32,355 nt of DNA, taken from Nitrospirota bacterium. GTDB lineage: Bacteria > Nitrospirota > Thermodesulfovibrionia > Thermodesulfovibrionales > JdFR-85. The translations under genes and the position numbers were made by a program. Numbering within the stretch: the first letter of the stretch is position 1; each line of letters starts with the position of its first letter. The notes below the pieces were generated by a model. It saw only the letters and a list, made by a program, of their open reading frames with translations, was not told the origin of the DNA and ran no database searches. Below are positions 3,559 to 14,691 of this stretch, piece after piece. The DNA lies in contig JAADIE010000122.1 of assembly GCA_013151495.1 (NCBI GenBank), positions 4,841 through 37,195 on the forward strand, read 5' to 3'.

Positions 3559-4278
3559 CTAAACAGTCCTCTTTGATTGTCTTTTTTTGTAAAAAAGGTA
3601 CGTATTTTCTATTATACCCCAAAGTAGATATCCCATTGCAAAGGAAAATAGCGCTATTGGTGGGTGGACAACGGTAAAAAATATTAAAGTCACAAAAAAT
3701 ACAAGTGCCCAGAAGGGTTTGCGTCTTTTTAGGTCTATCTCTTTTATACCATGAAAACGCATAGTACTTATCATTAACATAGCTAATATAATGGTTAATA
3801 TCAAAACAAAAATGCTCCCCCTCGGGGGTGAATCATAAAAGCTATTGTGAAATATAACCAGTGTAGCTATTACCGAAGCGGCAGCAGGAATGGGCATACC
3901 GGTGAAGGCAAGCCTTTCTGTAGACACCATCTGAATATTATAACGGGCAAGCCTTAAAGCTCCACAGGCTGCAAAAAGGAATGCCGTTGCTGTGCCAACC
4001 CTGCCAAATGGCATTAACGACCATGTATAAACCAGCACAGCAGGTGCAATTCCAAATGCAACAAGATCGCTAAGAGAGTCCAGTTCCAGACCAAACTTGG
4101 TTGTTGTGTTTGTCAATCTTGCCATCCAGCCATCCAATCCATCGAATATATTGGCAATAAGGATTGCCCAGGCAGCCCTGACATAATCTCCTTTAATGGC
4201 TGAAATAAGCGCATAAAAACCGAAAAACATACCACATATGGTGAGGCTATTTGGTAAGAGATAAATACCTTTTTTCAT
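3559..4278 (-). CDS. pssA: CDP-diacylglycerol-serine O-phosphatidyltransferase
   Basis: PssA makes phosphatidylserine from CDP-diacylglycerol and serine in the inner membrane; Psd next door converts it to phosphatidylethanolamine. The 239-aa protein carries the complete CDP-alcohol phosphatidyltransferase signature D46-x2-D49-G50-x2-A53-R54-x8-G63-x3-D67-x3-D71, the metal and CDP site. Several hydrophobic segments follow, consistent with a polytopic membrane enzyme. The start ATG overlaps the psd stop by four bases (4275-4278, ATGA), so the two genes are translationally coupled. The product is inferred from the family signature and the neighbouring psd; other members of the family use different alcohols. 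Confidence 0.92.
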
Positions 4279-4910
4279 GCTTTACCTTCTTTCAATCTGG
4301 CAATTGGTGTTTCACCAGCTTTTACCTTGTTGCCAGGTTTTACAAGTGGTTCAGAATTTTCTGGAAGGAAAATATCGACTCTTGATCCCAGCTTTATTAT
4401 TCCATACCTGTCACCACGCTGAAGTCTTTCTCCGGGTTTGGCCCGACAAACAATTCGTCTAGCAACCAGGCCTGCTATCTGTCTGACAAGAACAGGCCCC
4501 CTGTCTGTTTCAAGCAACATTGAGACATTCTCGTTTTCTAATGAGGCAAGGTCTGTATAAGCAGCCCTGAATCCACCTTTACGATGTACCACCTTCAGTA
4601 CCCTGCCGGTATAAGGAGCCCGGTTCACATGTACATTAAAGGGTGACATGAAAATGCTGATCCTCAGGGCCCGTGTCATCAAGAAATCAGGCTCCTGAAT
4701 TTTGTCTATTTTGATAATTTTTCCATCTGCAGGGGAAACAACGATGTCAGGCTCAACTGTTGATCTCCTTTCAGGGTCTCTGAAGAAATATAGTACGAAT
4801 AGAAAACCTGTAATTGGTAATGTAGAAACAAGCCAGCCCCAGAGGGCATAACTCAAGGCTGCTGTGGCAGCCGTAGCAAAAAGATATGGAACCCCTTCCT
4901 TTGCGATCAT
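4275..4910 (-). CDS. psd: Phosphatidylserine decarboxylase proenzyme, short (PSD-A) type
   Basis: Psd decarboxylates phosphatidylserine to phosphatidylethanolamine. It cleaves itself to create a pyruvoyl group. The 211-aa length and the site KLGSRVDIFLP fit the short PSD-A branch, which has GSR in place of the longer enzymes' GST; S176 is the expected cleavage and pyruvoyl serine. The other likely active-site residues are D62 (SPADG) and H94 (FNVHVNRAPY). One or two hydrophobic segments near residues 8-45 (ending in FLFVLYFFRDPERR) anchor it to the membrane. No ribosome site is visible before the ATG. A weak -10 (4944-4949) and the palindromic element described separately lie directly upstream. 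In Geobacter, as I recall, psd-pssA-leuA also occurs in this order. Confidence 0.93.
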   Translation of the reverse strand: MIAKEGVPYLFATAATAALSYALWGWLVSTLPITGFLFVLYFFRDPERRSTVEPDIVVSPADGKIIKIDKIQEPDFLMTRALRISIFMSPFNVHVNRAPYTGRVLKVVHRKGGFRAAYTDLASLENENVSMLLETDRGPVLVRQIAGLVARRIVCRAKPGERLQRGDRYGIIKLGSRVDIFLPENSEPLVKPGNKVKAGETPIARLKEGKA

Positions 4911-4943
4911 GTTTTTTATTGAATAGTCAATAATGCCCGGTAA

Positions 4944-4949
4944 ATAATA
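4944..4949 (-). promoter_or_regulatory. Possible -10 element for psd-pssA-leuA-leuC
   Basis: TATTAT on the minus strand, placing a start site roughly 27 nt before the psd ATG. No good -35 is visible. It coincides with the edge of the candidate mobile element, so the element may supply or interrupt this promoter. Weak call. Confidence 0.3.
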
Positions 4950-5142
4950 CAGGGGATATTAATATTGATCGGTTTTAATTTTGCTAAAGATTTGCTATGA
5001 AGAGCAAATCGCAATATTTCCTCGTAAAAAGTGGCCCCCGAAAAGTCGCAGACCTTTCTGAATGTCTGTCGATAGCGGGCACCCCATAAAGTCATCAAGA
5101 CTTTATGGGGTGCCTTGGGAGACGAATAACTACTATCCCCTG
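4950..5142. mobile_element. Candidate miniature inverted-repeat element (or structured RNA) between cimA and psd
   Basis: This fills most of the 273-nt cimA-psd spacer. Its ends are a perfect 9-bp inverted repeat, CAGGGGATA (4950-4958) and TATCCCCTG (5134-5142), with partial similarity continuing inward. The ends are flanked directly by the direct repeat TAATA (4945-4949 and 5143-5147), as expected of a target-site duplication. Inside are three hairpins: 4989-5010 (8 bp, 6-nt loop), about 5046-5072 (8 bp with one bulge) and 5078-5114 (16 bp, 5-nt loop). No transposase or convincing protein frame is present. The flanks are AT-rich, so the 5-bp duplication could be chance. A multibranched RNA closed by the end repeats is the alternative reading. 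Confidence 0.5.
5078..5114. repeat. Perfect 16-bp hairpin, 5-nt loop
   Basis: Arms 5078-5093 (GGCACCCCATAAAGTC) and 5099-5114 (GACTTTATGGGGTGCC) are perfectly complementary around the loop ATCAA. Neither strand has a T-run after it, so it is not a typical intrinsic terminator. A stem this long and exact is not expected by chance in 273 nt. Confidence 0.9.
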
Positions 5143-5183
5143 TAATATAATAAGTTCTCATCGTTTGCAGACAATAGTATAGA

Positions 5184-6767
5184 CTATTGTTTTTCTTCTT
5201 TATTTTCTTCTTTAAGAAGTTTGTAATCAATACTATCAACAAGGGCCTGCCAGGAGGCCTCAATGATATTTTCAGATACACCAACGGTGCCCCATTTTGA
5301 TTCAGAATCACCCGACTCTATCAGAACTCTTACCTTAGAGCCAGTTCCTTTGCGTGTACTTAATACGCGAACCTTATAGTCATTCAATTTTACCGACTTT
5401 AGTTCTGGATAAAACTTCTCAAGGGCCTTTCTCAGGGCATTGTCAAGAGCATTAACTGGTCCGTTTCCGGTTGCAGCAGTGTGTTCTATATGTCCACTTA
5501 CCCTGACCATTATTGTGGCTTCACTAAGTGGCTCTTCGGTTTCCTTTCTTTTTTCAACTATCACTCTAAAACCAATAAGATCAAAGAACCGCTTGTGAAG
5601 ACCGAGTATCTTTTTAACAAGGAGCTCAAAAGATGCATCGGCTGCCTCAAATTGGTATCCCTGATTTTCAAGCTCTTTGATTGTAACCAGGATTTCCTCA
5701 AGCTGTGGAGAGCCCTTATCCAGGCTGATGCCAAGTTCTTCAGCCTTTCTGATGATATTGCTTTTTCCGGCAAGATCAGACACCAGTACCCTGCGGGAGT
5801 TACCAACAAGCTCAGGCCTTATGTGTTCATAGGTGTCAGGGTTCTTTATAATTGCTGATACATGGACACCGCCTTTGTGTGCAAAGGCACTATCGCCTAC
5901 ATAGGGCTGACGATTAAAGTGGCTGATGTTCGCAATTTCATTTATAAATCTGGAGACCTCTCTGAGGCGTCTAAGCTGCTCGTCAGAAACGCATTGATAA
6001 CCCAGTTTTATCTGAAGATTGGGTATTATTGAGCAAAGATTGGCGTTTCCACATCTTTCACCAAGGCCATTAATTGTGCCCTGAACATGGGAGGCCCCTG
6101 CAGAGACAGCAAGCAGTGAGTTGGCTACTGCGCATTCCGAGTCGTTATGGGCATGTATGCCTATTGGGGCTTTCAGGGTCTTCTTTATGGTTTTTGTGAT
6201 CTTCTTTATATCATCTGGCAGTGTACCACCGTTTGTGTCGCAGAGAACAAGACAGTCTGCACCAGCCTCCTTAGCTGCTTCAAGACATTTAACCGCATAT
6301 TCAGGGTTGTTTTTATATCCATCGTAAAAATGTTCGGCATCAAAAAACACAGTGTCGACTCGTTCCTTTAAATATTTAATTGTGTCATAAATGATTTCAA
6401 GGTTCCTATCAAGAGAGATTCTCAAGGCTGCGGTAGCATGAAAGTCCCAGGTTTTACCAAATATAGTGATAACGGGTGTTTCTGCCTTTAACAGGCTCTG
6501 AATATTGTGGTCCTTTTCGACCTTTACACTTGCCCTGTGGGTGCTTCCAAAGGCCACTACCTTGGAGTTTTTGAGTTTGAGGCCTTTGGCTTTTCGGAAG
6601 TACTCAGCATCTTTTGGGTTTGAGCCAGGCCAGCCTCCCTCGATGTAGTCAATACCCAGCTCGTCCAGCTTTTCTGTAATGCGCAGTTTGTCTTCAACCG
6701 AGAAGTTGATCTCCTCAGACTGGGCACCGTCTCTTAAGGTTGTGTCGTATATAACGATTTTTTTCAT
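5184..6767 (-). CDS. cimA: (R)-citramalate synthase, LeuA-like type
   Basis: CimA condenses pyruvate with acetyl-CoA to citramalate, the entry to threonine-independent isoleucine synthesis. The 527-aa protein has the HMGL-like barrel with [72 protein letters not shown] and the C-terminal LeuA dimer domain. [10 protein letters not shown] and the DGAQSEE variant separate this branch from true LeuA. It is a paralogue of the leuA in this window. The ATG at 6767 is chosen over a TTG at 6785 because it matches the family N-terminus; neither has a ribosome site. LeuCD, LeuB and IlvD would complete the pathway. A homocitrate-synthase-like role is less likely given the motif set. Confidence 0.92.
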
Positions 6768-6815
6768 AATATTAAATTTAATCAAAATTATGTTTAAAAA
6801 ACAAGGAAAATTTTG

Positions 6816-13407: not shown

Positions 13408-14691
13408 TTAGTTAAGTTCTGCCTCCAGATCATAATCGTAGGCCCTGGTTATTGTGACATCAACAAAGTCGCCTTTCATAAGTGGCCTTCTTAAGCCTTT
13501 AATAAATACCAACCCGTCAATCTCCGGGGCCTGCCCATAATAACGACAAAGGGCAACATCCTGGTCTATTTCATCCACCAGGACCCTCAGTCTTTTTCCA
13601 ACAAGCCTTAGATTTTTTTCTAACGATATACCTGCCTGAATGCTCATCAACCTGTGATAGCGATCCTTTTTTAACTCATCAGGGATCTGGTCCTTGAGGT
13701 CAAAGGCAGGGGTGCCCTCTTCCTGTGAGTATAAGAAGGCTCCAACCCGGTCAAATTGAACCTCTTTAATAAAGTTAAGAAGTGCCTCAAACTCCTGCTC
13801 TGTCTCTGATGGAAACCCCACTATAAAAGCGGTTCTTAATACAATATCGGGTATTTCCTGACGAATGGTTTTTATGGTTTCCTGAATCTGCCTTTTAGAA
13901 CATGGCCGGTTCATGAGTTTCAGGATTCTGTCTTCTGAATGCTGTAGTGGCATGTCTATATAATGGCAAACCCTGGGGTTGTTTTTTATGGCATCGATCA
14001 GGCCTTCATTTATTGAATCAGGGAATAGATAAAGTAACCTTATCCAGAAATCGCCATCAAGACTGTTAAGTTCATACAGTAGATTACTAAGGCTGTACCC
14101 TCCAAGGTCTTTACCATAAGAGGTTATATCCTGAGCAACAAGTATTATCTCCTTTACACCTTTAATGATTAGCTCTTTAGCCCTCTTTATGATCTCTTTC
14201 TGGCTCAGGCTCCTTAATCTTCCCCTGATTGAGGGAATAACACAGAAACTACAGCGACGATTACATCCCTCTGCTATCTTTATATATGCATAGCTTGACA
14301 GATCATTGGCACCAACGAAATCAACCCTCTCAGGCTTTCTACCATTGAGGAATCTTTTACAGTACTGGAGTATATTTTTAAAATCCTCTACACCAAAAAA
14401 GGCATCAACCTCAGGCAGCTCTTTTTTTAGCTCTTTTAGATACCGCTTGGCAAGACAACCAAAGACAATTAGTTTTTGTTCAGGAGACTTTTTTTCAACA
14501 TAACTCAATATCTCTTCGACAGATTCCTCTTTTGCTGCATCAATAAAGCCGCAGGTATTAATCAGAACTAAAGAGGCCTCCTCCGGGGTGCTGGCAGGAT
14601 AGAAGCCTGCCTCGGTCAGTTTCTTCTTGAGCACATCGGAGTCGACAGTATTCTTTGGACAACCAAGGGTGTGAATATAAAATGTGGACAT
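13408..14691 (-). CDS. rimO: Ribosomal protein S12 methylthiotransferase
   Basis: RimO adds a methylthio group to an aspartate of ribosomal protein S12. The 427-aa length is standard. The N-terminal MTTase domain has C11, C47 and C79 (HTLGCPKNTVDSD, INTCGFIDAAKEES, VFGCLAKRY). The radical-SAM motif is EGCNRRCSFCVIPSIRG (C143, C147, C150). The C-terminus holds the TRAM domain. CGFIDAAKEESVE and CVIPSIRG point to RimO rather than the tRNA enzyme MiaB. There is no ribosome site: the 48 nt before the ATG are a degenerate heptamer repeat separating it from nadA. Confidence 0.94.
   Translation of the reverse strand: MSTFYIHTLGCPKNTVDSDVLKKKLTEAGFYPASTPEEASLVLINTCGFIDAAKEESVEEILSYVEKKSPEQKLIVFGCLAKRYLKELKKELPEVDAFFGVEDFKNILQYCKRFLNGRKPERVDFVGANDLSSYAYIKIAEGCNRRCSFCVIPSIRGRLRSLSQKEIIKRAKELIIKGVKEIILVAQDITSYGKDLGGYSLSNLLYELNSLDGDFWIRLLYLFPDSINEGLIDAIKNNPRVCHYIDMPLQHSEDRILKLMNRPCSKRQIQETIKTIRQEIPDIVLRTAFIVGFPSETEQEFEALLNFIKEVQFDRVGAFLYSQEEGTPAFDLKDQIPDELKKDRYHRLMSIQAGISLEKNLRLVGKRLRVLVDEIDQDVALCRYYGQAPEIDGLVFIKGLRRPLMKGDFVDVTITRAYDYDLEAELN

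Follow-up and report, generated by a model that had tools for sequence, protein, structure and literature searches.

What occupies the space between psd and cimA in this Nitrospirota genome, and how did it come to be there? We addressed this in the window, meaning the whole 32,355-nucleotide stretch of DNA that was analysed. A sequence-only reading had taken positions 4950-5142 for a non-autonomous miniature inverted-repeat transposable element (MITE), bounded by CAGGGGATA and its complement and flanked by TAATA as a 5-bp target duplication. We compared this copy with its siblings in the same and other genomes, built a covariance model, and asked which ends, which fold and which strand are conserved.

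The element between psd and cimA

The two genes are as had been proposed: one is psd (PF02666), and the other encodes an enzyme with HMGL-like and LeuA-dimer domains, consistent with cimA. Between them lies a composite mobile element of about 254 bp (about 4928-5181), which by sibling comparison extends from 17 bp ahead of the psd start codon to the cimA stop codon. Its parts are listed here with their neighbours.

4275..4910, minus strand: psd, phosphatidylserine decarboxylase (PF02666, E 2e-46)
4928..4944, plus strand: left outer inverted repeat CAATAATGCCCGGTAAA, consensus CARTAnTGTCCGRTAAA, from by-eye sibling alignment; an IS4/DUF4372-type end, with which an insertion sequence also begins
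4950..4966, plus strand: closing stem P1, left arm CAGGGGATATTAATATT; the same arm occurs in siblings
4967..4972, plus strand: junction motif 1, GATCGG here, consensus GARCGG
4973..5019, plus strand: arm P2, a hairpin GATTTGCT...AGCAAATC atop an AT-rich stem
5020..5026, plus strand: junction motif 2, degenerate, CCTCGTA here, consensus CCTCGGA
5027..5116, plus strand: region of arm P3, into which REP-like modules that stand alone in other genomes have inserted, rearranging it
5036-5047 and 5082-5093, plus strand: the REP-like modules CCCCGAAAAGTC and CCCCATAAAGTC inside the P3 region
5078..5114, plus strand: perfect 16-bp hairpin (5078-5093/5099-5114), belonging to an inserted module
5119..5126, plus strand: what is left of junction motif 3, GAGACGAA (consensus GAGAATGAGACGAAAA), AATGAG lost (sibling comparison)
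5126..5142, plus strand: closing stem P1, right arm, ending TATCCCCTG
5163..5181, plus strand: right outer inverted repeat, degenerate, around GTTTGCAGACAATAGTA, from by-eye sibling alignment
5184..6785, minus strand: cimA-like citramalate/isopropylmalate synthase; its stop codon (5184-5186) abuts the element, and its C-terminus is EENKEEKQ followed by the stop

The segment folds far beyond its shuffled versions (z -8.5 as DNA, z -7.0 as RNA). The repeat CAGGGGATA is indeed present at 4950-4958, with its complement at 5134-5142, and the inverted repeat there is longer than had been noted (4944-4961/5131-5148, 89% complementary). This repeat does not mark the ends of the mobile unit or a transposase site, as had been supposed; it is an inner stem, the one that closes a three-way junction. 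TAATA likewise stands at both 4945-4949 and 5143-5147 but is not a target duplication, since in siblings the flanks AATA...TATT continue the inverted repeat and the duplications lie about 55 bp further out. The perfect hairpin of 16 bp was confirmed, as a secondary insertion of a REP-like repeat: in this copy a second repeat, CCCCGAAAAGTC ... GACTTTTCGGGG plus a variant of CCCCATAAAGTC, takes up P3.

With GATCGG for GAGCGG, CCTCGTA for CCTCGGA and AATGAG gone, the window copy is a worn, damaged member of its subfamily, and no function for cimA or psd need be assumed. The second dispersed hairpin repeat, about GGGGTCCCCGAAAAGTCGCAGACTTTTCGGGGT, was seen in the window (5036-5047, 5078-5114) and at five further loci (L036, L038, L044, L046 and L053). 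It inserts into the arms of three-way-junction elements and also occurs on its own in intergenic DNA of two other genomes, G042 and G047, in one case next to a tRNA gene.

Copies, empty sites and outer ends

We performed BLAST against the host genome and found more than 20 dispersed relatives (best 84% identity), and several genomes of the same family hold many copies. With a covariance model derived from 39 copies, the count in the host genome rose to 43; the genus-mate has 5 and other genomes as many as 106 (range 0-106 between genomes). The dispersal that a MITE implies was therefore found in place of a single copy. The window copy scores 39.8 bits with this model; a weak match elsewhere in the window (13655-13772, minus strand; 17.3 bits, E 0.04) is probably due to chance. 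No element with a gene inside its core, that is, an autonomous version, was present among the fetched loci, and blastn against phages and plasmids gave no match.

The cimA-psd locus was found without the element in relatives, as the sequence-only reading had anticipated, and conservation at the same locus was not seen. In two sister genera (G003 and G005) the psd start overlaps the cimA stop (CAATGA), and in the genus-mate (G001) the gap is element-free, unrelated and AT-rich. The absence of the element at this site in relatives indicates that it was inserted in this lineage. At other loci, seven genome pairs hold elements at orthologous intergenic sites. In two of these pairs (L187/L193 and L218/L335) the core is flipped with respect to its flanks and the P1 arms still align; in others the arms come from a different subfamily. 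Inversion in place across P1 and independent insertion would both explain the opposite core orientation, in what is a small sample. Some of the intergenic DNA of Thermodesulfovibrionales is accounted for by these elements. One contig of the host genome (C63; L377, L378) carries ten of them in 28 kb, filling many gaps between ordinary genes, with three in a row at L378:7975-8515. We considered an integron-like cassette array on this contig and rejected it, as the genes there are ordinary metabolic and regulatory ones.

In the sibling copies, similarity extends about 35-55 bp past the CAGGGG stem, up to ends of the form CARTAnTGTCCGRTAAA. Outside these ends, at least six copies carry 9-bp direct repeats in a register read by eye: CCTTGGGTT (L032), ATCCCGGAT (L034), ATCACTGCT (L041), ATAGCTGGA (L042), ATAAAACAT (L048) and AAATTGAAA (L049). 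Flanking duplications of dispersed copies thus exist, with a length of 9 bp instead of the 5 bp suggested earlier. No clean 9-bp target duplication is recognisable at the window copy.

To find contigs with this outer end, we searched TANTGTCCGRTAAA across the order. Contigs starting with the end continue into an open reading frame, MNKVYTIFTELLKLCP..., that matches DUF4372 (PF14294, E 3e-8 and 2e-10), a domain at the N-terminus of certain IS4-type transposases. Insertion sequences starting with TAGTGTCCGGTAAA and continuing into a DUF4372 start were found at L231, L255, L382-L384 and L386; contig ends truncate these frames, so that each was recovered only as a left end plus start. In the host genome, a draft of 128 contigs from which repeated genes may be missing, neither PF01609 nor PF14294 gave a match, and no transposase with these outer ends was found. 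A transposase with matching ends, which the sequence-only reading had suggested looking for, appears only as partial insertion sequences in other genomes. Two candidate sources were rejected: the ends of the PF01609 transposases of the family (five loci) do not match, and matching ends were not found around the DUF4372 gene of the genus-mate (L414). Small elements with TAGTGTCCGGTAAA-type ends in which the three-way-junction core is absent were also observed (L388, L390 and L394).

The family therefore looks like a MITE in its dispersed non-coding copies, its insertion-sequence-like terminal inverted repeats (clear in siblings, degenerate in the window copy), its 9-bp duplications and its empty site. 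The non-autonomous, MITE-like character of the earlier proposal stands, and its boundaries at 4950-5142 and TAATA duplication do not. IS4-type ends together with 9-bp duplications in siblings show that the element was spread by DDE cut-and-paste in this bacterial family. The transposase would act in trans, given that the only insertion-sequence fragments with these ends were seen in other genomes.

The three-way junction and its folded strand

Copies from other families share neither the outer ends nor the arm sequences, and have the same core plan: P1, GARCGG, P2, CCTCGGA, P3, GAGAATGAG, P1. We found double changes at 15 of the 20 predicted pairs. The P1 arms are 93.8% paired, compared with 53.8 +/- 1.6% when arms are swapped between copies, and nearly every P1 position shows all four Watson-Crick types; for P3 the figures are 96.7% and 57.9%. 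Tandem GA/GA mismatches are common at the junction (left GA in 111/133 copies, right GA in 108/133). At the junction pair beside them, 31 distinct copies have G-C and 10 have A-T, with G-T/A-C in none (Fisher p 9e-10). On sequence comparison, the inner part of the window element is a worn member of this larger family, in which the junction is constant and the arms are variable but paired. In one subfamily (L258, L263, L279 and L303), P2 is conserved as TTTTTTGCCGATAGTC ... AAAGAGGCAAAA with a variable insert.

We determined which strand is folded from the mismatches in P1. Across 91 arm clusters, G-T outnumbers A-C by 80 to 18 (p 2e-10); as the excess would be reversed on the complementary strand, it is the folded form of the GARCGG strand that is under selection. 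The sign is the same in all four gene-orientation classes (26:9 in copies antisense to both neighbours), and an excess kept in every arrangement of neighbouring genes does not arise from read-through mRNA. An orientation antisense to both neighbours is also commoner than a sense one (53 vs 29 copies, p 0.01), and these antisense copies (53 of 114) lie at median gaps of 24 and 20 nt from the genes. Since they sit so tightly between genes and keep the bias, folded single-stranded DNA is favoured over an RNA with its own promoter.

Distribution, candidate reader and rival explanations

The junction pattern occurs in 83 of the 176 genomes of the order, and a reversed-pattern control in none (0/176). 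Among the matches listed, which come from named genomes, those forming a P3 stem are mainly Nitrospirota/Thermodesulfovibrionales records; the others belong to Latescibacterota, Desulfobulbaceae and other Desulfobacterota, Gemmatimonadetes, Parcubacteria, Auribacterota and Spirochaetes. The records from other phyla are mostly metagenome assemblies, so that single cases may be contamination; several of these genomes (PBOD, DQLG, VMGG and JAHJRI) have two or three element-bearing contigs each. Viral contigs gave 32 pattern matches, none with a P3 stem, and we judged these to be chance. No family among the Rfam 15 covariance models matched, and our literature search found no paper on such an element. 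This appears to be an undescribed family of three-armed folded elements in several bacterial phyla.

Y1 (HUH) transposases are present in 51 of the 55 genomes with at least three copies, as against 70 of the 121 others. After stratification by family, this association has an odds ratio of 9.1 (p 3e-4), compared with 1.06 for the rve transposase family and 0.86 for CsrA as controls; all of these tests ignore kinship below family level. A Y1 gene was not detectable in the host genome or in G003, G069 and G074, all of which have several copies. An arrangement with elements adjacent to the gene, as in RAYT, was rejected: 20 neighbourhoods of 22 Y1 genes (146 kb) contain only 3 elements, none of them adjacent. 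Because some carriers lack a detectable Y1 gene and Y1 genes are not flanked by elements, Y1 is a candidate partner and not a finding. We saw no conserved cleavage tetranucleotide outside P1. Target duplications directly at P1 show no excess over swapped flanks in copies generally, which is compatible with a mechanism other than DDE. At two loci of one genome (G029:C22 and G029:C17; L126, L141), we observed paired Y1 transposase genes about 2 kb apart.

We consider it probable that the locus holds a worn, composite, protein-free mobile element with IS4-type-ended siblings, whose three-way-junction core is read as folded single-stranded DNA. A protein acting in trans would recognise the inner element in this form, through its junction and irrespective of the arm sequences, much as attC sites and REP sequences are read. 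The most plausible reader would be an HUH/Y1-type transposase, a route that predicts the lack of adjacent target duplications outside the IS4-ended subfamily. It is possible, though we think it unlikely, that the junction acts instead as RNA, the GARCGG strand being transcribed into a structured RNA, either catalytic or bound by protein, that was dispersed by happenstance. Free arms on a constant junction, tandem GA/GA mismatches, a covarying R-Y junction pair and tolerance of G-T would all suit an RNA. Such an RNA would have little promoter room in the 53 of 114 copies antisense to both neighbours, where the strand bias also holds; moreover, flanking sequence is unconserved between subfamilies and Rfam is without a match.

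The IS4-type ends with their 9-bp duplications, both seen in this family of bacteria, and the occurrence of same-ended elements without the core (such as L388) would also fit an ordinary IS4-type MITE whose internal structure is an incidental palindrome. We find this improbable, as the core covaries strongly and occurs in other families and phyla without these ends and with unrelated arms. A non-mobile regulatory structure inherited vertically could account for the seven orthologous intergenic sites at which two different genomes carry an element; it is very improbable given the empty cimA-psd site in relatives, copy numbers from 0 to 106, the target duplications of siblings, and cores exchanged wholesale or inverted at orthologous sites. 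Many arm-3 loops resemble the CsrA consensus (e.g., GACAAGGATGTC) and the host genome has csrA, so we also considered that the hairpins are CsrA-binding sites with GGA in their loops, dispersed as decoys or regulators. A GGA loop is present in only 78 of 139 copies, csrA is absent from families f2 and f10, which are rich in copies, and present in f3 and f9, which have hardly any, and the odds ratio is 0.86. We give this reading next to no credence, and a CsrA sponge is effectively refuted for the whole family by the csrA distribution.

Beyond this locus, we tentatively propose, with slightly less than even confidence, an undescribed, cross-phylum class of elements in which a constant three-way junction carries free arms. 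Selection would act on the folded single strand, of DNA or perhaps of RNA, and the elements would spread both alone, by a strand-specific enzyme, and as cargo in IS4-type MITEs. If this is right, mobile DNA that is read by its structure extends more widely than the REP and attC types. The class would have a simple diagnostic (a constant junction, free covarying arms and a G-T excess on one strand) for which a search model is ready, and the recognising protein would become a testable question, with Y1 transposases as the first candidates.

Each known system shares part of this description. Like IS4-family MITEs of the DUF4372/DDE transposase group, the element is short and protein-free, with insertion-sequence-like outer inverted repeats and 9-bp duplications in siblings; unlike them, it contains a three-way-junction core that exists independently of the ends. 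REP/BIME sequences are mobilised by RAYT (TnpA-REP), which are Y1 HUH enzymes. They resemble the present family in copy number (from tens to about 100 per genome, in intergenic DNA), in being palindromic, in that the folded strand matters, and in a Y1 association, here at genome level. Our element differs from them in having three arms and a constant junction of about 25 nt, and in lacking a GTAG-type tag at the hairpin foot among its conserved positions; the elements also do not flank Y1 genes, as REP sequences do with RAYT, and in some carriers no Y1 gene was detected. With attC sites of integrons, the element has in common free arm sequence, constant structure and recognition of one folded strand (putative here), whereas its consensus is without GTTRRRY boxes and the elements are not set out here as an array of gene cassettes with an integrase. 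BOX elements of Streptococcus pneumoniae are likewise dispersed, mosaic and structurally conserved intergenic repeats; we noted no sequence relation to them, and the present family, in contrast, spans several phyla.
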